From Streptomyces sp. NBC_01707 (GTDB lineage: Bacteria; Actinomycetota; Actinomycetes; Streptomycetales; Streptomycetaceae), in the NCBI RefSeq assembly GCF_041438805.1, contig NZ_CP109190.1, forward strand, positions 8,184,001 through 8,248,000: a stretch of 64,000 nucleotides of DNA, written 5' to 3'. The position numbers and the translations under genes are program-made. The notes under the pieces were generated by a model that did no database searches, had not been told where the DNA came from, and saw only the letters and a program-made list of their open reading frames with translations. Positions 55,835 through 64,000 of this stretch are shown here, piece by piece (position 1 is the first letter of the stretch; every line of letters starts with the position of its first letter).

Positions 55835-55873
55835 CGTGTCCGACCCCTCCTACGGCTGGAGGGGGTCGGGACA
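55835..55873. terminator. Imperfect hairpin at the convergent gene ends
   Basis: GTGTCCGACCCCTCC pairs with GGAGGGGGTCGGGACAC (55835-55873, two bulges) and overlaps the 3' end of the minus-strand lipoprotein gene, facing the GHR-like gene. Confidence 0.5.
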
Positions 55874-56440
55874 CGAGTCGTCCGACTGCGTCATGGTCCA
55901 TCCGTCCCCGACCACGTGGACGCTCGTCTGCGCGAGGGAGCGTTGCGTATCGACGGTAGGAGCCGCAGTGGCACCGTCCCGATTCGCGTCTCCGGCCGGC
56001 GCGGCAGACGGCAGAGTCACGTGAGCCACCGTGCACACCAACTGCCGCATGGCCAGGCGGCTGAGGGGAGGGACATCCTTGGGGAGCTGGATGGAGAAGG
56101 TCCTGTCGTCGCCGATGGCCACTTTCGGTGTACCCGTCAGAGGGGGCAGCTCCGTGGTGGCCGCCACGGCCTCGCTCGTGGTCGGTCCGTCGAACAGCAG
56201 CCGCACGACGGCCCCGAAGTCCCCGGCGTCGCCGATCTTGCGGAGATAAGGCGTCAGATCACCCTTGTGCAGGAAATAGACGGGGATGACGGTTGGCACC
56301 GAGGACTTTGGACTGGGAGAGACCATGCCGCTCGCCGGTGCGCCGGCCTGGATGACGTCGGAGGGCGGGACTCCGCACGCCGAGAGTGTGAGCGCGGCCG
56401 TGAGTCCGGCCAGCAGCGCCGCCACGCGCGAGCGCCTCAC
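55850..56440 (-). CDS. GerMN-like lipoprotein of the two-component operon
   Basis: A 196-aa lipoprotein: a short signal ends in LTLSACG (lipobox Cys about 23). A GerMN-like domain follows (VPVYFLHKGDLTPYLRKIG ... VVRLLFDGPTTSEAVAATTELP) with later LAMRQLVCTVAHVTLPS. The GTG start overlaps the kinase stop (GTGA). The order regulator, kinase, lipoprotein resembles the AfsQ1-Q2 and CseA/B/C systems, in which the lipoprotein tunes signalling at the cell surface; such a role is inferred. Confidence 0.88.
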   Translation of the reverse strand: MRRSRVAALLAGLTAALTLSACGVPPSDVIQAGAPASGMVSPSPKSSVPTVIPVYFLHKGDLTPYLRKIGDAGDFGAVVRLLFDGPTTSEAVAATTELPPLTGTPKVAIGDDRTFSIQLPKDVPPLSRLAMRQLVCTVAHVTLPSAAPAGDANRDGATAAPTVDTQRSLAQTSVHVVGDGWTMTQSDDSCPDPLQP

Positions 56441-58032
56441 CGGGCACCCCCGGTGGCGTCGTCGGCGGCCGCGGAGTCGCGGTGCAGGGGGAGTTCGACC
56501 GTGAACACCGCGCCGCCCCCGGGCAGGTTCGCCGCACTGATGTGTCCGCCGTGCAGGTGCACGTTCTCCGCCGTGATGGCCAGGCCCAGCCCGCTGCTCT
56601 CGCTTCTGGTCCGTGTGGTGCTCGCCTTGTAGAAGCGTTCGAAGATGTGCGGCATGGCTTCTTCGGTAATCCCCGGTCCGTTGTCGGTCACCTCGATGAC
56701 GGCCCACGCCATGTCCGCCCGCTCCTTCCTCACGCCCATGCCCAGCCGCACCGGCGGTGCTCCGTGCCACAGCGCGTTGCCGACCAGGTTGGCGATCACC
56801 ACGTCGAGCCGGCGCGGGTCCACGCGCGTCCTGAGCACGCCCGGTCGGGGCAGGCGGGTCTCCACCTGGCCCTGCCATCCCCGAGAGGCGAGGGTGTGCT
56901 GTACGAACTCGGCCAAGTCGATCTCGTCCAGGTTGAGTTCCGCCGCGCCCGCGTCAAAGCGGGAGATCTCCATCAGGTCGTTGACCAGCACGCTCAGTCG
57001 ACTGGTGCCCTCGCTGATGAGCTGCAAGGCCTCACCGGTCTCCCGGTCCAGGCGCAGCGCCTTCTCGTCCAGCACGTCGGTGACCGCCGACATCGCCGCC
57101 AGCGGCGTGCGGAGCTCGTGGGAGACGTCCGCGACGAAGCGGCGCGCCTGGGCCTCCAGGCGGCGCAACTCCGCGACCGACTCCTCCAGTGCTGCCGCCG
57201 TGTGGTTGAAGGACTGCGAGAGGTCGGCCAGTTCGTCGGAGCCGTTGACGGCGAGCCGCACGTCGAGGTGCCCCTCGGCCATCCGCCGCGTGGCCCGGCG
57301 CAACGCCCGCACGGGACGGAGAACGCCGCGCGCGGCCAGCAGCGCCAGGACGACGGCGAGGCCCAGCGCCACCAGGGTGGCGTGCTCGATGGCGCTGACC
57401 GTCGCTTCGACGTAGGCCTGTTCGGTGTTCTGCGGCACCACCAGGTACATCACGAGCCCCGAGAGCTTGGACTCCGTGCCCTCGCCGGAGTTGTACGTGA
57501 CCGGCATTCCGACGACGAGAAAGGGATGCCCGTCGGTGCTCACCCGCTGGAACACCGCGGCACGTGTGGTTCCAACGGACCGGCGCAGTTCCGGGCTCAG
57601 CTTGGTGGAGACGTCACCCGGCGAGTAGGCGCGGAGGCTGCGGTACGTGGCCATTACCTGCCACCCTTGTGACTGGTTGGCGTGGAGCACCTGGTCCACC
57701 GCCGCCTGCAAGTCAGACCGGCTCGGCGTCAGGGGAGTGTAGACGGCCACGGCGTCGACGCTGGTCCGGAACTGCCGGATGACGGCGTCCTGGCTCTGTT
57801 GCAGCACCCCCGTGCGTGCCTCCCGGAAGGCGAGGGCTCCGGTGCTCAGGGCGCCGGCCACGGCGACCAGGGCGAAGGCCACCACCAGGCGGGAGCGGAG
57901 GCCTCGCAGCGCAAGCGGTGCCTGCGCCAGGACCGTCCGAAGGTACCCCGTCGGCCTGGATCCCTGCCCGGCTGCGACGGCCTCGCCTTTCCGTACGCCT
58001 TCTCGCGCCCGTACGGATCCCTGGCCACTCAC
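56437..58032 (-). CDS. AfsQ2-like sensor histidine kinase
   Basis: A 531-aa kinase. Membrane segment 1 is at about 47-68 and segment 2 at about 225-245, bounding a roughly 150-residue sensor domain; HAMP about 245-297 (VLRPVRALRRATRRMAEGHLDVRL). The DHp H box is FVADVSHELRTPLAAMSAV (phosphoacceptor His), and the ATPase domain has N box VIANLVGNALWHG, G1 VIEVTDNGPGI, F box IFERFY and G2 SSGLGLAI. GTG start at 58032 overlaps the regulator stop (GTGA). Ligand unknown; likely an envelope or nutritional stress cue. Confidence 0.95.
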   Translation of the reverse strand: MSGQGSVRAREGVRKGEAVAAGQGSRPTGYLRTVLAQAPLALRGLRSRLVVAFALVAVAGALSTGALAFREARTGVLQQSQDAVIRQFRTSVDAVAVYTPLTPSRSDLQAAVDQVLHANQSQGWQVMATYRSLRAYSPGDVSTKLSPELRRSVGTTRAAVFQRVSTDGHPFLVVGMPVTYNSGEGTESKLSGLVMYLVVPQNTEQAYVEATVSAIEHATLVALGLAVVLALLAARGVLRPVRALRRATRRMAEGHLDVRLAVNGSDELADLSQSFNHTAAALEESVAELRRLEAQARRFVADVSHELRTPLAAMSAVTDVLDEKALRLDRETGEALQLISEGTSRLSVLVNDLMEISRFDAGAAELNLDEIDLAEFVQHTLASRGWQGQVETRLPRPGVLRTRVDPRRLDVVIANLVGNALWHGAPPVRLGMGVRKERADMAWAVIEVTDNGPGITEEAMPHIFERFYKASTTRTRSESSGLGLAITAENVHLHGGHISAANLPGGGAVFTVELPLHRDSAAADDATGGAR

Positions 58033-58733
58033 TGGATACCGAAGCGGTAACCGAAGCCGCGAACCGTCTGGATGTACCGGGGATCCCCGCCCAGCTCCCC
58101 GAGCTTGCCGCGCAGTCGCTTCACGCAGGCGTCCACGAGTCGTATGTCGCCGTGGTAGCTGTGCTCCCAGACCGCTTCCAGCAACTGCTGGCGGCTGAAC
58201 ACCTGTCGCGGCGAGGCCGACAGGGTCAGCAGCAGCCGAAGCTCGGAGGGGGCGAGCGCGATCGGTTCACCGCGGTGTTTCACCACCAGTCCGGCCCGGT
58301 CGATGACCAGCTCGCCGTGCGACTCGGCCCTGGGGCGGACGGCGTCGGAGACCGACGCGTCCTGCCTGCGCAGCACGGCCCGTATTCGCGCGTCGAGCAC
58401 CCGGGCCTGCACGGGCTTGACCACGTAGTCGTCCGCGCCGGCCTCCAGCCCCACGACCACGTCGATGTCGTCCCCCTTGGCGGTCACCATGATGATCGGC
58501 ACCTGGTCGCGATCCCTGATCCGCCGACATACGTCGAGGCCGGAGATGCCGGGCAGCATGAGGTCCAGCACGACGACGTCCGGATGGAAGGAGCGGAGCT
58601 GTTCCAATCCCTCTTCACCCGTTCCGGCGGCGAATACGTCATGCCCCTGATGGCGCAGCGCCAGTTGGACGGCCTTGCGGACATCTGGGTCATCTTCGAC
58701 AAGTAGGACTCGTGGCACTTTGACAGTATGCAC
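58029..58733 (-). CDS. AfsQ1-like OmpR-family response regulator
   Basis: A 234-aa OmpR/PhoB regulator. The receiver domain (about 8-120) has acidic pocket VEDD, phospho-Asp in VVVLDLMLPGISG, and VTAKGDDIDVVVGLEAGADDYVVKP, which is close to AfsQ1 wording. The winged-helix domain (about 145-230) includes SRQQLLEAVWEHSYHGDIRLVDACVKRLRGKLG and RGFGYRFG. Start GTG 58733; an alternative GTG at 58718 (MPRVLLVEDD) is also plausible. A GTGAT-n6-GTAAC site lies 48 bp upstream, suggesting autoregulation. Confidence 0.95.
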   Translation of the reverse strand: MHTVKVPRVLLVEDDPDVRKAVQLALRHQGHDVFAAGTGEEGLEQLRSFHPDVVVLDLMLPGISGLDVCRRIRDRDQVPIIMVTAKGDDIDVVVGLEAGADDYVVKPVQARVLDARIRAVLRRQDASVSDAVRPRAESHGELVIDRAGLVVKHRGEPIALAPSELRLLLTLSASPRQVFSRQQLLEAVWEHSYHGDIRLVDACVKRLRGKLGELGGDPRYIQTVRGFGYRFGIQ

Positions 58734-58780
58734 AGATCGTGTTCGGTAACTGTTCTGGGGGAGGGGCCGTCCTGGGAGCT

Positions 58781-58796
58781 GTTACAGAAGGATCAC
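58781..58796 (-). promoter_or_regulatory. AfsQ1-type site upstream of the response regulator
   Basis: On the minus strand the sequence is GTGAT-CCTTCT-GTAAC, matching the known S. coelicolor AfsQ1 consensus GTnAC-n6-GTnAC at nine of ten defined positions (one C-to-T). It is 48 bp before the regulator start, a good position for autoregulation. Confidence 0.6.
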
Positions 58797-58902
58797 AACG
58801 GACGGGGACGGGTGGGCGGTCTCCGCTCGGCGTGCGGTCGGGCAAAGAGTCCTGTCGAACCGGCCTGCGGGCGCAAACGACGCGAGCTGCCGGAAAGTTG
58901 CT

Positions 58903-58957
58903 CGTTACTCTTTCGTGATGATCCGAACCAATGGCGATCATCTGACCTGACCAGTCT
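58903..58957 (+). promoter_or_regulatory. Duplicated promoter block, copy 1, upstream of the DUF3152 gene
   Basis: Contains GTTAC-TCTTTC-GTGAT (58904-58919), again AfsQ1-like, then TCCGAACCAATGGCGATCA and CCAGTCT (58951-58957). A 7-bp inverted repeat, GATGATC 58917-58923 / GATCATC 58936-58942, lies inside. The whole 55-bp block is repeated with identical spacing at 59977-60031 (about 75% identity). It sits 9-63 bp before the DUF3152 start. Confidence 0.6.
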
Positions 58958-58965
58958 CAGCTGCC

Positions 58966-59880
58966 ATGTATTCGGCACGAGAGCGGGAATCCGCACCGCC
59001 CACCAGCAGCGCCGTGGCCTCCGTCCGCGTTGGCCGTCAGCACCGGTCATCCCATCGCGGTGGCCGTCGGCGGCGCTCCGCCCCCCGCCGGGGCCGTCCG
59101 GGCCGCCGGGGCTATCTGGTCGGCGTGCTGGTGGCCGCCGGACTGCTCGGCGCCACGGTGTTCTTCTTGGACGGCGGACGAAGCGGCGCGTCGAGCGGTG
59201 CACCGCGCCCGCGGAGCACGGTCGTCACCCGCACCCCGACGCCCACGCCCACGCGCTCGCCGAAGCCGACCCCGACGCCTACCCCCACCCCCACCGAGAT
59301 CGATGTCCCCTCGAGGGGCACCGGCACGTTCGTCACCGCACGTGCCGGTGGCGAGAAGGTCGGCCATGGTTCGCATCTGCTCCGCTACGTGGTGGAGGTC
59401 GAGACCGGGCTCGACATCCAGCCCGCCCAAGCGGCGAACGAGATCGCCGACATACTCGCCGCCCCCCGGGGCTGGACCCACAACGGGGTTTCCTCGTTCC
59501 AGTTGGTGAGTGCGGGGGAGCCCTACGACCTCAAGGTGAAGATCGCGACACCGGGAACGGCGGACGCCCTGTGCTGGGAGGGCATCCACCAGGACACCGA
59601 AGGCGAATACAACTGCGAGATTCCCAACGGGGTGGTCGTGAACCTCAAGCGCTGGGTGAAGGGCTCGCCCACCTTCGGCGGTCCGATCAGTGACTACCGG
59701 GCGCTGATCATCAATCACGAGATCGGGCACGCTCTGGGCCACCCGCACATGGCCTGCGCGGGGCCCGGGCAACTGGCCCCCGTCATGATGCAACAGATCA
59801 AGGGCCTGCACGGATGCATCGCCAACGCCTGGCCCTACGACAAGAGCGGTCACTTCGTCTCCGGGCCGCACGCGAGGTGA
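58966..59880 (+). CDS. Membrane-anchored DUF3152 zincin-like protein
   Basis: A 304-aa protein. Arg/Ser-rich cytoplasmic N-terminus, membrane segment at about 50-68 (GYLVGVLVAAGLLGATVFFL), a Thr/Pro repeat stalk (about 85-112) and the DUF3152 domain (about 118-300). The metzincin-like motif NHEIGHALGHPH (His251, Glu252, His255, His259) indicates a zinc metalloprotease fold facing outside. The family is actinobacterial and its substrate is unknown. It is divergent from the response regulator and carries an AfsQ1-like site, so it is probably a target of that system. Confidence 0.93.
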   Translation: MYSARERESAPPTSSAVASVRVGRQHRSSHRGGRRRRSAPRRGRPGRRGYLVGVLVAAGLLGATVFFLDGGRSGASSGAPRPRSTVVTRTPTPTPTRSPKPTPTPTPTPTEIDVPSRGTGTFVTARAGGEKVGHGSHLLRYVVEVETGLDIQPAQAANEIADILAAPRGWTHNGVSSFQLVSAGEPYDLKVKIATPGTADALCWEGIHQDTEGEYNCEIPNGVVVNLKRWVKGSPTFGGPISDYRALIINHEIGHALGHPHMACAGPGQLAPVMMQQIKGLHGCIANAWPYDKSGHFVSGPHAR

Positions 59881-59976
59881 ACCGGCGGCGACCGGGCGCC
59901 CCTGACGGTGCGCACTCGGATCGCGGCGCTTCGCTGCCCGGGTCGGGGCCACACCTGGCGGGGGGCCGGAAACCGG

Positions 59977-60031
59977 CGTTACAGCTTGGTCATGGTCCGA
60001 ACCAGTGGCCATCACCTGCGGACACCAGTCT
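59977..60031 (+). promoter_or_regulatory. Duplicated promoter block, copy 2, upstream of the lipoprotein-ABC operon
   Basis: Contains GTTAC-AGCTTG-GTCAT (59978-59993), then TCCGAACCAGTGGCCATCA (from 59996) and CCAGTCT (60025-60031). It shares the same spacing as copy 1 at 58903. It lies about 190 bp before the lipoprotein start, so the transcript would carry a long leader or the start lies further upstream. Confidence 0.6.
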
Positions 60032-60221
60032 TGGACCCAGTGACAACGCCCCGGTCTTCAGAGCCGGCGGGTGACTCTCACATCGCAGTGCTCCGGTGCG
60101 GAGAAAGCCGGATGCCGGCGGTGCGAGCAGCGGGGGGCGGCGCCTCTCGATCCCAAGCTCCCCACGGCTTCCCCACGGCCTGTCACGGGACATCAACACC
60201 CTCTCGATCGGATGGAAGAGA

Positions 60222-61145
60222 ATGTCTGGATCCCGCACTGTTCGGAAACTGGCCGTAGCGGTCAGTCTGCTGCCGCTGCTGGCGGCCTGTGACACCGAGG
60301 CGGCTTCTCACTCGGCGGACGACGGGAAGGCCCCGGCCGGATCGTCGGGGCAACTCGACGTTCCCGCGGACGCCGGCGCGGACCTCAAGAAGCAGTACCT
60401 CATGGAGAACGCGATCGCGTCCTGCATGAGGAAGCAGGGGTTCGCCTATACCCCCGAACCTCCCATGGATGTGGCGTCCTCCTGGGCCCATGACGGAGCG
60501 GACTTCGAACTGACCAAGAAGTTCCGGCAGAAATACGGCTTCGGCTACTCCGCGGCGGTTGTCTACCCCGACGACCCCCAGGTGCCGGGCAGTGAGGCGG
60601 CGACCAAGCCCTCGGCCAACGCGGAGTACGTCGCCACGCTCACTCCCGCGCAGAAGACCGCCTACGACAAGGCGCTGGGAGGCCCCCCGGACCCGAAGGT
60701 CGGCGAAAAGGACTGGAGCGGTTGCATGGGAACGGCCGACAAGAAGGCCTACGGCTCCGCATCGGCCCAGGAGCGGAGCGCCACAGCCGCTTCCCGGAAC
60801 CAGGCGAACGCGCAGGCACTCAACGGTGATCAGAAGCTGGTCGGCCTGGCGCAGTCGTACGCCTCGTGCCTGAAGAGGGACGGCATCCCCGTCACGACCA
60901 CGCAACCGACCAGCATCGGGGAAATGGTGAAGCTCCAGGCGGCCATGTCCGCTCCCGTCGGCGTCCGTGGGTCGGGCGTCGCCGCGGAAGGGACCTCCGA
61001 GAAACCCATGAGCAAGGAAGAGGCTCTGCCGCTGCTCACCAAGGAAATCGACCTGGCGATGAAAGACCTGGAGTGCGGCAAGGACTTCCGGGCCGCCTAC
61101 TTCCCGAAGTTCCTGAAGGCGCCGGGTTCCACCGGTGCGGGGTGA
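60222..61145 (+). CDS. Putative lipoprotein of the ABC export operon
   Basis: A 307-aa lipoprotein: MSGSRTVRKLAVAVSLLPLLAACD, with LAAC as the lipobox (Cys about 23). The mature part is soluble, with paired Cys motifs (ASCMRKQGFAY, SGCMGTADK, ASCLKRDGIPV, LECGKDFRA). No family name is recognised; similar Cys-containing lipoproteins sit beside MacAB-like ABC operons in Streptomyces. ATG 60222 follows GGAAGAG. Its 3' and 5' ends are duplicated in the next small ORF. It lies under the second copy of the promoter block. Confidence 0.88.
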   Translation: MSGSRTVRKLAVAVSLLPLLAACDTEAASHSADDGKAPAGSSGQLDVPADAGADLKKQYLMENAIASCMRKQGFAYTPEPPMDVASSWAHDGADFELTKKFRQKYGFGYSAAVVYPDDPQVPGSEAATKPSANAEYVATLTPAQKTAYDKALGGPPDPKVGEKDWSGCMGTADKKAYGSASAQERSATAASRNQANAQALNGDQKLVGLAQSYASCLKRDGIPVTTTQPTSIGEMVKLQAAMSAPVGVRGSGVAAEGTSEKPMSKEEALPLLTKEIDLAMKDLECGKDFRAAYFPKFLKAPGSTGAG

Positions 61146-61447
61146 GACAGCGCCGGAACCGGGTGAGCAGCGGTCCCCAGCAGTCGGGGAGAACAGCTCC
61201 GCCCACAACGACGGCACCGGACCGTTCGCGATCTGTTCTGCCGTTGGCACCACCCGCTCTCGCAATCGAATGGAAGAAAATGTCTGGATCCCGCACCGTT
61301 CGGCAACCGGCCGTAGCGGTGAATCCGTTGCCACTGTTCATCCAGGACATCACCTCGGCGATGCAGGGCCTGGAGCGCGGCCAGGAGTTCCGGACCGTCC
61401 GCTTCCCGGAGTTCCTGAAGGGCTCGTTCCACGGAGGCGCCGGATGA
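61142..61447 (+). pseudogene. Scar of a collapsed tandem duplication (adaptor start plus deleted lipoprotein copy)
   Basis: The first part (61142-61196, GTGAGACAGCGCCGGAA and on) repeats the start of the adaptor gene at 61444. From ATG 61280 a 55-codon ORF repeats the lipoprotein signal (MSGSRTVRQPAVAVNPLPL) and then jumps to the lipoprotein C-terminus (GQEFRTVRFPEFLKGSFHGGAG), omitting about 756 bp in frame. The lipobox Cys is lost (FIQD instead of LAAC). It therefore looks like a nonfunctional or at least non-lipidated fragment. Its stop overlaps the adaptor ATG exactly as in the parent copy. Confidence 0.85.
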
Positions 61448-62844
61448 GGCAGCGCCGGAAGCGTGAGAGCAGCCGTCCCAGGCAGTTGGGGATCATCGTT
61501 GCCGCGGTGGCGTTGGTAGGAGTGGCCGGTTGGTTCGCCGGTTCGCAGATGCAGTCGCCGGCGGATGCGGCTGCCGCACATCAGGCGCCGAAGGCCGGAC
61601 CGGTCACCGCCGCGGTCGAGCGGCGTTCGCTGACCGCGAGTGTGGTGGCCCAGGGCTCGGTGGAGTTCGCCTCACCGCGGAGTCTGCTCCTGGCCGGGCC
61701 GGTCGGCCCTCCGGACGGCGGCTCCGGGGCATCCGGCTCCACCGACGACGTCGTCCAGCGAGTCACCAAGGCACCGGCCGCCGGGTCGGAGGTGAAGGAG
61801 GGCGATGTGTTGATGCAGGTGAGCGGCCGACCGGTTCTGGTGCTGCGTGGATCGGTACCGATGTACCGCACCCTGGGTCCCGGCACGTCCGGGGACGACG
61901 TCAAGCAGCTCGAACAGGCCCTGGCTCGGCTCGGTTTCGACTCCGGTGGCACCAACGGGACGTATGGGCAGGGGGACGCGGCGGCGGTGAGCCGCTGGTA
62001 CAAGAGCAAGGGTTTTCACGCGCAGGAGCCCGGTGTCGCGGACAAACAGCAGCTGGGAACGCTTGAAGCGGCTGTGACCAGCGCGCAGCAGGCCCTGCTC
62101 GCGGCCAGGAATCCGGGCAGCGGCTCCGGGGGATCGGGCAGCGGCACCGGCGGTGAATCCGGAAGGCTGCAGCTCAAGGCGGCGCAGCAGCAGTTGGACG
62201 CGGCCAACGCCGCGCTCCTGGCCTTCCAGGCCGGCTACGGGACCAAAGTCCCCGCGGGTGAGGTCGTCTTCCTGCCGGATCTGCCGGCCCGGTTGGACAA
62301 GGTGTCCGTGAAGATCGGTGACACCCCGTCCGGACCGGTCGGCACCGTGACCAGCTCCAAGGTCGTGGTGCAGGCCGTGGTTCCGAGCAACGATGCCAAG
62401 TTGCTCCACAAGGGCATGACAGCGCAGGTGGAGACCCCCGACGGCGACAAGGTGCAGGGGGAACTGGTGGCGCTCGGCGGCGATGTGCCGAAGAACGATG
62501 CGGGGAACGGTGAAAACCCGGCGGGCACGTCGGGTGGCGGAGGTGATGATGCGTCGGCCCCCGTACCGGTGCAGATTTCCGTCCCGTCGGGCGAACTGAC
62601 CAAGAAGGCCAACGGGTCCGCGAAGGTGACCGTCAAGGTGGGCGCGTCGGACTCTGACGTGTTGACGGTGCCCGTCGCCGCACTCCACACATCGGCCGAC
62701 GGGCAGGCCAAGGTGCAGGTCCTGCGCGGCAGCAAAGTGGTGGATGTCGCCGTCAAGGCGGGCCTCTCCGCGGAGGGACAGGTGGAGGTCACGCCGTCCG
62801 GTGACGCCCTGAAGGAGGGCGATCAAGTGGTGGTCGGACAATGA
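61444..62844 (+). CDS. HlyD/MacA-like membrane-fusion adaptor with peptidoglycan-binding domain
   Basis: A 466-aa protein. A membrane segment lies at about 15-36 (LGIIVAAVALVGVAGWFAGS), then a lipoyl/barrel-hybrid region, a PG_binding_1 domain (about 150-200; GTSGDDVKQLEQALARLGFDSGGTNGTYGQGDAAAVSRWY), a coiled-coil-prone Ala/Gln stretch (about 205-260), and a beta-barrel and membrane-proximal domain (about 265-466). This is the Gram-positive MacA-like adaptor that couples to MacB-type ABC exporters. It overlaps the ATPase gene by 4 bp. Confidence 0.92.
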   Translation: MRQRRKRESSRPRQLGIIVAAVALVGVAGWFAGSQMQSPADAAAAHQAPKAGPVTAAVERRSLTASVVAQGSVEFASPRSLLLAGPVGPPDGGSGASGSTDDVVQRVTKAPAAGSEVKEGDVLMQVSGRPVLVLRGSVPMYRTLGPGTSGDDVKQLEQALARLGFDSGGTNGTYGQGDAAAVSRWYKSKGFHAQEPGVADKQQLGTLEAAVTSAQQALLAARNPGSGSGGSGSGTGGESGRLQLKAAQQQLDAANAALLAFQAGYGTKVPAGEVVFLPDLPARLDKVSVKIGDTPSGPVGTVTSSKVVVQAVVPSNDAKLLHKGMTAQVETPDGDKVQGELVALGGDVPKNDAGNGENPAGTSGGGGDDASAPVPVQISVPSGELTKKANGSAKVTVKVGASDSDVLTVPVAALHTSADGQAKVQVLRGSKVVDVAVKAGLSAEGQVEVTPSGDALKEGDQVVVGQ

Positions 62845-63563
62845 CGGAGCTGCCGATGTCCGTCGTACCCGACACCGACACCGTCATCCAACTGGTCTCC
62901 GTCGACCGGACCTTCGACTCCGAACCGCCGGTGCATGCGCTGCGGGACGTGAACATGACCGTCCGGCGTGGCGAGCACCTGTCGATCGTCGGCCCGTCCG
63001 GTTCCGGCAAGTCGACTCTGCTCAACACCCTGGGACTGCTTGACCGCCCCACCTCGGGCGCCTACTGGCTCGACGGCGTGGAGACCAAGACGCTCGGTGA
63101 CCTGGAGCGCACCTCGCTGCGCGGCAGCCGGATCGGATTCGTCTTCCAGTCCTTCCATCTGCTGCCCTACCGGACGGTGGACGAGAACGTCATGCTGGCC
63201 GAGGCCTACCGTCGGCCGCTCCCCGGGCGCGGCCGTGCCGGCCGCCGCACCAGGGCCGAGGAGGCGCTGGAACGGGTGGGCCTGGCGCACCGGTTCGGCT
63301 TCCGGCCGGACAGGCTCTCCGGTGGTGAAAGGCAGCGTGTGGCGATCGCCCGCGCGCTGATGAGCGAGCCCGCTCTGCTGCTCTGCGACGAGCCCACCGG
63401 CAATCTCGACAGCGAGAACACCGAGTCGGTGCTGGACCTCTTCGACGAACTGCGCGACCAGGGCATGACTCTGGTCGTGATCACCCATGAAGAGGCGGTC
63501 AGCAAGCGGGCCAACAGGCGGGTCAGGATCAGCGACGGACGGCTGACGGAGGAGAACCGATGA
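62841..63563 (+). CDS. MacB/LolD-type ABC transporter ATP-binding protein
   Basis: A 240-aa ATPase. Walker A GPSGSGKSTLLN, Q loop FVFQSFHLLPYRTV, signature LSGGERQRVAIARAL, Walker B ALLLCDEPTGNLDSENT and the H-loop VVITHEEA are all intact. It belongs to the LolD/MacB/FtsE family that drives FtsX-type permeases. It overlaps the adaptor and the permease by 4 bp each (ATGA), so all are made together. Confidence 0.96.
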   Translation: MTELPMSVVPDTDTVIQLVSVDRTFDSEPPVHALRDVNMTVRRGEHLSIVGPSGSGKSTLLNTLGLLDRPTSGAYWLDGVETKTLGDLERTSLRGSRIGFVFQSFHLLPYRTVDENVMLAEAYRRPLPGRGRAGRRTRAEEALERVGLAHRFGFRPDRLSGGERQRVAIARALMSEPALLLCDEPTGNLDSENTESVLDLFDELRDQGMTLVVITHEEAVSKRANRRVRISDGRLTEENR

Positions 63564-64000
63564 GGGCCCGAGCACGCGTCCTGGAGCCGGCGGCCCCGCT
63601 GGATCAGGCAGACCGGGTGGACCCGCGGATCGCCGACCGGTACGCCGGCGGGCGGCACACCACCCGCCGGGGGCGTGCACGGCGCCGCGGCAGGGCCAGG
63701 GTCATCGAGCGTCCCCGGATGGACTTCCGGGACCTGTGGACCGAGGCGCTGGCGGGGGTGCTCGCCCGTCCGATGCGCTCCGCCCTGACCACACTGGGCA
63801 CGGTTCTGGGCATCACCACCCTGGTCATCACCATCGGGATCTCGGCCACGGCGGGCAATCAGATCGTCGGCCGGTTCGACGCTCTCACCGCCACCTCGGT
63901 CACGGTGGTGGTACCCCCGCCGCCGCCGTCGGCCGACCCTGTGCCGCTCGTGGACTGGTCGGGTGTCGACGCGGTCCGGCGGCTCGCCGGAGTCGATTCG
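63560..64000 (+). CDS. FtsX/MacB-type ABC transporter permease (5' part only)
   Basis: The first 147 codons of a permease; the gene runs off the window. After an Arg-rich N-terminus of about 55 residues, DFRDLWTEALAGVLARPMRSALTTLGTVLGITTLVITIGISATAGNQIVGRFDALTATSVTVVV matches the first membrane helix and following segment of the MacB_PCD/FtsX family. It completes the lipoprotein-adaptor-ATPase-permease export operon. Confidence 0.9.
   Translation, partial: MRARARVLEPAAPLDQADRVDPRIADRYAGGRHTTRRGRARRRGRARVIERPRMDFRDLWTEALAGVLARPMRSALTTLGTVLGITTLVITIGISATAGNQIVGRFDALTATSVTVVVPPPPPSADPVPLVDWSGVDAVRRLAGVDS

Follow-up and report, generated by a model that had tools for sequence, protein, structure and literature searches.

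A repeated promoter-like block may tie a paralogue of the AfsQ1 two-component system to a putative surface metzincin and an exporter operon in Streptomyces

The window, that is the whole stretch of 64,000 bases analysed here, corresponds to G000:C1:8184001-8248000 of a Streptomyces chromosome, the genus being assigned from its relatives; related genomes and loci are denoted by G and L numbers. Its features are listed in Table 1. A three-gene operon, encoding a response regulator, a sensor kinase and a small putative lipoprotein, is divergently oriented from a DUF3152 gene, behind which lie the putative lipoprotein gene lipoB and genes for a MacA-like adaptor, an ABC ATPase and a MacB-like permease. 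The regulator has both a receiver domain and a winged-helix Trans_reg_C domain and thus belongs to the OmpR/PhoB family. It scores below the cut-offs of the CseB model NF041733 (265.8 bits against 350) and the MtrA model NF040689 (230.9 bits against 300) and is assigned to neither. Its reading frame is open from 58733; the GTG given in Table 1 is the preferred and most likely start, because relatives keep an ATG/GTG-CCACG start at that place. The start of the third gene was placed by its GTGA overlap with the kinase stop codon, and its product has no match in Pfam or NCBIfam. Searches of the same two collections revealed no protein family for LipoB, and a PDB sequence search with the MacA-like protein gave no match at E 0.01. 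The full frame of the permease, read in L095, comprises 451 aa. Between lipoB and the MacA-like gene lies a decayed second lipoB copy (61199-61444). Its end can still be recognised (33% over 85 residues), and by eye the start region is seen to be duplicated as well, suggesting that lipoB was probably duplicated and that the second copy then decayed.

Table 1. Genes and candidate regulatory elements at the locus (window coordinates)
Feature	Position	Strand	Remarks
Small putative lipoprotein gene, third in operon, afsQ3 position	55850..56440	-	LSACG lipobox-like stretch
Sensor histidine kinase gene	56437..58032	-	HAMP, HisKA, HATPase_c domains
OmpR/PhoB-family response regulator gene	58029..58718	-	Response_reg 1.6e-31, Trans_reg_C 3.5e-25; 229 aa from GTG 58716-58718
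-10-like CATACT	58725..58730	-	6 bp before regulator start codon; TACACT in most relatives; putative function
Site 1, GTGAT-n6-GTAAC, facing regulator gene	58781-58796	-	first base 78 bp before start codon
Site in front of DUF3152, GTTAC-n6-GTGAT	58904-58919	+	
Block A, candidate DUF3152 promoter	58904..58957	+	half-sites at +0, +11, +22, +33; CAGTCT +48; ATG +62
DUF3152 gene	58966..59880	+	N-terminal hydrophobic segment, Pro/Thr-rich linker, metzincin-type domain (HEIGHALGHPH, VMMQQ)
Site in front of lipoB operon, GTTAC-n6-GTCAT	59978-59993	+	
Block B, candidate lipoB/MacAB-like operon promoter	59978..60031	+	register of block A; CAGTCT +48, then putative leader of ~180 bases
lipoB, putative lipoprotein gene	60222..61145	+	LLAAC lipobox-like
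MacA/HlyD-like adaptor gene with peptidoglycan-binding domain	61444..62844	+	PG_binding_1 1.1e-05; RND_mfp 5.7e-06, below cut-off
ABC ATPase gene, LolD/MacB type	62841..63563	+	ABC_tran 8.4e-35; LolD and MacB models below cut-off
MacB-like permease gene	63560..64000, continuing to ~64916	+	MacB_PCD 1.4e-04 on in-window piece, below cut-off

An earlier, sequence-only reading of this DNA had pointed to three AfsQ1-like sites and to a 55-bp block with identical internal spacing around two of them. Both observations are borne out: each of the three sites has a single mismatch to GTnAC-n6-GTnAC, and the direct repeat 58903-58957/59977-60031 is identical at 41 of 55 positions (75%) without a gap. 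When the two intergenic stretches were dinucleotide-shuffled 2000 times, the best match over 55 bases had a mean of 28.4 and a maximum of 35, never reaching 41; among 190 other window stretches it did not exceed 33. The AfsQ1-type motif itself is not enriched, with 16 occurrences at one mismatch or fewer in the 64-kb window against 21.7 expected, and counting motifs was dropped as evidence on its own because it stays at chance level. As the bare motif is at chance while the repeat and its conservation across genomes are above it, conservation decides. An inverted repeat noticed by eye in block A (GATGATC/GATCATC) was also dropped, its first arm being lost in most aligned rows. An Rfam search of the region gave no family above the cut-off and two matches far below it, and a simple scan of 58600-60400 detected no intrinsic terminator and no consensus sigma-70 promoter.

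To assess conservation, named genomes were scanned with the DUF3152 protein and the best 80 of 170 loci retained; block A was compared over 40 loci, namely the window, the G172 locus and the 38 nearest (L013-L050). The block is kept before DUF3152 in 35 of these, without any indel and with its first G 62 bp before the ATG. The score used to pick blocks in this comparison rewards a start codon at +62; a search without that term returned the same distance at every pattern-matching locus where the DUF3152 match starts with residue 1. Over 26 non-redundant rows, the mean frequency of the top base is 0.79 in the block against 0.46 at 60 to 11 bases upstream, and the edge of conservation is sharp, two bases before GTTAY. 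At the DUF3152 genes of the remaining five loci (L029, L037, L042, L049, L050) the block is absent; four of these five genomes still carry a regulator at 73-82% identity. At L049 a lipoB-type block (L049:4168-4221) precedes the DUF3152 gene by about 530 bases, and the same genome has an 82% regulator without a site in the 300 bases upstream.

Site 1 (GTGAT-like-n6-GTAAC) is kept in 28 of 33 loci that have the regulator beside the zincin gene and is missing in L040, L043, L046, L047 and L048. All three sites are conserved in related genomes, site 1 and block A each with the exceptions named. The distance of site 1 to the regulator start is 76-79 bp in 25 of the 33, and in L073, L075 and L080 it is 56-57 bp, closer by about two turns of the helix; its distance to the zincin gene, unlike that to the regulator, varies among loci. 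At the regulator start, most relatives keep TACACT, six bases and then ATG or GTG, where the window has CATACT.

The architecture of the block was derived from an alignment of 44 copies. Among its 33 DUF3152 rows, GTNAY is found at +0 in 31 and at +11 in all 33, ATCAY at +33 in 27 and CAnnnT at +48 in 32. The corresponding counts for the 11 lipoB rows are 10, 10, 3 and 10, with ATGAA as the fourth half-site in six of them. The half-sites thus follow the 11-bp register of PhoB-type promoters, and no consensus -35 stands at the expected place in the aligned blocks. The AfsQ1-like sites named in the sequence-only reading are present, but the conserved block extends beyond them and has the look of a complete promoter: four half-sites at 11-bp intervals, a 10-bp gap, CAnnnT as the presumable -10 element, about 8 bp, and ATG. 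The short distance between the -10 and the start codon points to a leaderless zincin mRNA; the lipoB leader would here be about 180 bases long.

The register was examined in 31 more distant regulator loci that had not been used in finding it, the sites being picked solely by the first half-site pair and a start codon 59-64 bases further on. ATCAY is present at +33 in 23 of the 31 and CAnnnT at +48 in 25, these denominators including three loci without a candidate (L139, L141, L202), two whose candidates look like chance picks (L142, L143) and one that is off register by one (L213). In an offset control with the 18 best test loci, RTCAY occurs at +33 in 15 and CAnnnT at +48 in 17, against at most 7 at other offsets; this maximum of 7 falls at +44, one further 11-bp step. 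Some distant relatives have an extra ATCAC at +44, touching the -10, which could point to repression, and in L205-L208, L210 and L211 GTCCA serves as both the second and the third half-site. The half-site at +33 fits a direct reading (ATCAY as a degenerate GTNAY) as well as an inverted one (RTGAT), and in L219-L222 it belongs to an opposite-strand GTGAT-n6-GTGAT.

A close lipoB is found in nine distinct loci (window, G172, L019, L022, L024, L025, L032, L036, L038), and all nine carry the block upstream of it. The alignment of orthologous loci proposed along with the earlier reading thus finds the block conserved at both genes. In L024 and L032 the lipoB match is partial and not accompanied by a MacA match, and the distance from block to lipoB is variable, ranging from 117 to 244 bp. 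Since close lipoB genes occur in just 9 of the 40 loci, the exporter arm is limited to some lineages. The 420 bases upstream of seven more distant lipoB homologues (L102-L108, ~44-54% identical) contain no full site, and their short fetched flanks contain no regulator; two of them, L105 and L106, show a 7-of-8 site. In G068 (L109/L203), lipoB and a MacA gene are the immediate divergent neighbours of a regulator that is 79-80% identical, and the promoter of lipoB there reads GTTGC, ATCAC, GGCCA and ATCAC at +0/+11/+22/+33, followed by CAGCCT at +48 and ATG at +62. Block B is intact at L014:6077-6130 with no lipoB operon behind it, while in Streptomyces sp. JH14 (L013:6018-6709) a deletion runs from inside block B to inside macB, leaving macB residues 228-451 (98% identical) and sparing zincin and regulator, the rest of the exporter operon being gone. 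Block B is also truncated in L015.

For genome-wide searches, profile R1 was built from the 44 blocks, omitting the near-identical DUF3152 blocks of L021 and L024 and the lipoB block of L025; L100, which was included, is the same genome as L025, and L073, L075, L080 and later loci were reserved for the register test. In the genome of the window the profile has two full matches (E 5e-13 and 3e-12), the next one being partial at E 0.22. The idea of one compact regulon is upheld to the extent that the full block precedes just two promoters genome-wide; the lineage-limited exporter arm and the weakness of autoregulation, discussed below, detract from it. Among 246 genomes of the genus, searched with stricter filters that lose weak matches, a strong block (E <= 1e-8) is present in 10, and all 10 have the regulator at >=73% identity. 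Conversely, the regulator is present at >=82% in 10 of the 246, of which nine have a strong block and one, G045, a weak block (3.8e-4); weak matches in this search (E 1e-4 to 0.01) are mostly partial. This sample overlaps the named loci (G133 = L025 and, judged by equal coordinates, G087 = L026, G125 = L018, G132 = L043, G045 = L049).

Co-occurrence of block and regulator is partly plain linkage: DUF3152 lies in the flanks of 26 of 29 fetched regulator loci (73-93% identical), the exceptions being L202, L203 and L213. More telling are the unlinked cases L018, L019, L031 and L039, in which the zincin gene keeps its block with no regulator in the fetched flanks, while the regulator (73-77%) is encoded elsewhere; L019 keeps both blocks, one at the zincin gene and one at lipoB. 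DUF3152 genes whose products are about 41-59% identical to that of the window also adjoin distant regulators of the clade (L204-L212, L214-L222, L073, L075, L080), so that the pairing of regulator and metzincin looks old in the genus. L140 (G250) and L141 (G247) each have a DUF3152 gene beside the regulator and a second, unlinked one, both with sites nearby; the L140 site is in register, and at L141 no start codon stands in the expected place.

The DUF3152 protein of the window has a metzincin fold, with an HExxHxxGxxH zinc site and a Met-turn. Zinc ligands and M165/M166 are invariant across 54 aligned DUF3152 proteins, and the strict HExxHxxGxxH occurs in 63 of 90 extracted domains. Fold and zinc site are common to snapalysin and karilysin; sequence identity to these is only 13-19%, and DUF3152 adds an N-terminal hydrophobic segment and a linker. 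We infer a putative membrane-anchored extracellular protease. In the open-licence literature we found nothing that joins DUF3152 with Streptomyces, and DUF3152 by itself appears there in work on mycobacterial adhesins.

The same genome carries a separate AfsQ1-type locus, L094, whose regulator is 61% and whose kinase is 43% identical to its counterpart in the window. The locus also has a lipoprotein-like gene, a SigE-family sigma gene in divergent orientation and a site, GTCAC-n6-GTCAC, that is perfect. This gene arrangement is the one given for AfsQ1/Q2/Q3-sigQ in published passages (PMC9739842, PMC6988585). The third-gene protein of the window and the AfsQ3-position protein of L094 are 25% identical (E 0.094). 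In a tree of 67 regulators, L094 and L144 form their own branch (100/96), apart from 63 rows that include the window regulator and L093 (96/95), although long branches meet here and the placing is unsure. With 61% identity and a separate branch, the regulator does not qualify as an AfsQ1 orthologue, and the gene divergent from it is DUF3152 rather than the ECF sigma gene sigQ. Judged by its sequence, the window system is a paralogue of AfsQ1, a sister system to AfsQ1-sigQ.

AfsQ1-type promoters were collected from the upstream regions of 15 regulators plus L094 and L144 (17 in total; the sigma gene was scanned at L094 alone). Fifteen of the 17 read GTGAC-n6-GTGAC-n6-nGGAC (or CAGAC)-n6-ATGAA-n10-CAnnCT, which is the half-site and -10 register of the window block in other letters; L224 and L225 have no site. 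A start codon occupies the matching position in only 1 of the 15 promoters, that of L094, so the leaderless part is not common to them. Overall, the locus resembles AfsQ1/AfsQ2/AfsQ3-sigQ (Streptomyces coelicolor SCO4907/4906/4905/4908) in its gene order of regulator, kinase and putative lipoprotein, its divergent target, its operator-like sites one mismatch away from GTnAC-n6-GTnAC, its half-site register and CAnnnT at +48. It differs in half-site letters, in the second site before the regulator and in its targets, a metzincin and, in some lineages, an exporter, where AfsQ1 has an ECF sigma factor.

Two further known systems are close to that of the window. In PhoB promoters, the last repeat lies 10 bp from the -10. 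The Pho box of PhoB/PhoP, like the window block, is read by an OmpR/PhoB-type regulator and consists of 11-nucleotide direct repeats arranged head to tail, as described in part of PMC4415409. It differs in half-site sequence, and the window regulon is local, with two promoters and non-phosphate genes. CseB, of the CseB/CseC/CseA-SigE system, is the nearest NCBIfam regulator model to the window regulator, with a score below its cut-off; CseA is a lipoprotein proposed, in a passage of PMC6593405, to dampen the signal of that system. No sigE-type gene lies beside the regulator in the window.

Sites, register, spacing, conservation, gene families and paralogy, all read at the sequence level, are best explained by a two-component system similar to AfsQ1/AfsQ2 yet distinct from it that runs a small local regulon, an interpretation we regard as likely. 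On receiving a signal, the kinase would phosphorylate the OmpR/PhoB-type regulator, which would then bind half-sites repeated in tandem every 11 bp (GTTAY-n6-GTNAY-n6-half-n6-ATCAY). A gap of 10 bp separates the last of them from a weak putative -10 (CAnnnT) downstream, and the bound regulator may replace the missing -35, by analogy with class II activation by PhoB. In this way it would switch on a leaderless mRNA of the membrane-anchored extracellular metzincin, while the second promoter copy would drive the lipoB/MacA/ABC/MacB exporter operon and the simpler upstream site would let the regulator tune its own operon. That the neighbouring regulator acts as an activator is, in our estimation, probable. 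Autoregulation appears to be the weakest part of the model, because site 1 sits 63-78 bp upstream of the regulator start and 5 of 33 loci lack it. AfsQ1 is reported, in part of PMC6988585, to activate sigQ but not its own operon, which favours activation here and leaves autoregulation least certain.

Binding by another protein has to be weighed against this model. What we take to be the recognition helix is nearly alike in the window regulator and in AfsQ1-type regulators (RLVDACVQRLRAKV against RLVDACVKRLRGKL), so that cross-binding is possible, and the promoters could be served mainly by the true AfsQ1 or by another GTnAC-reading OmpR-family regulator such as MtrA, with the neighbour as one of several readers. 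AfsQ1-type promoters share the register of the window block, and AfsQ1 and MtrA are described in parts of PMC6988585 and PMC13189361 as reading GTnAC-type repeats with 5-6 bp spacers. The letters, on the other hand, are class-specific, with GTGAC/GTGAC/nGGAC or CAGAC/ATGAA in 15 of 17 AfsQ1-type loci against GTTAY/GTGAY/.../ATCAY here. Moreover, an AfsQ1-like regulator (59-62%) is present in all 16 genomes checked, yet the strong block is found in just 10 of 246 and tracks the other regulator, and G251 (L037), the sole genome of the 16 lacking the closer regulator, has no block at its DUF3152 gene. We consider control mainly by AfsQ1 or MtrA improbable.

The neighbouring regulator might also repress these promoters by covering the -35/-10 region until a signal relieves repression. 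Autoregulation by repression is common, and the half-site at +33 (and at +44 in some distant relatives) overlies the promoter; the lack of a recognisable -35, however, argues that transcription probably requires an activator, in the main clade 10 bp separate the final conserved half-site from the -10, and the same register precedes sigQ, reported in a passage of PMC6988585 as activated by AfsQ1. Repression is accordingly an unlikely mode of action. Very improbable is a recent duplication devoid of function, or conservation that merely reflects coding or RNA structure. The genome has just two full copies of the block, and block B stands without its operon in L014 and is truncated in L013 and L015, which speaks for such a reading; yet both block classes are kept with class-specific letters across many species (11 lipoB and 33 DUF3152 rows), the conserved elements lie 11 bp apart, and no Rfam family reaches the cut-off.

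Preferring activation by the neighbouring regulator, we propose that the promoter of an AfsQ1-paralogue system drives an anchored metzincin and a lineage-limited exporter instead of a sigma factor. No description of this regulon was found in the open-licence literature; new here, as far as sequence comparison goes, are the layout of the promoter and its agreement with that of AfsQ1-type promoters. They would provide a sequence-level rule for the position that an AfsQ1-type regulator has to occupy if transcription is to start, making targets of such regulators findable by register instead of by a weak motif, and they tie the zinc protease-like DUF3152 and the exporter to a specific sensor, a first handle on the function of both. 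More speculatively, and rather doubtfully, the arrangement of four 11-bp half-sites, 10 bp and CAnnnT might be a portable, spacing-locked and regulator-dependent promoter chassis of Streptomyces AfsQ1-type regulators, on which paralogous kinase-regulator pairs swap cargo (sigma factor, leaderless surface metzincin, MacAB-like exporter), with the metzincin trimming the kinase, its lipoprotein or an exported peptide and so closing a feedback loop at the cell surface.

The genome also contains a third regulator-kinase-lipoprotein operon of this type (L093:3423-6069), the regulator of which is 67-68% identical to that of the window and is preceded by only a weak site (GTGATCGTTGGGATAC); the gene adjoining this operon is presumably MurJ-like.
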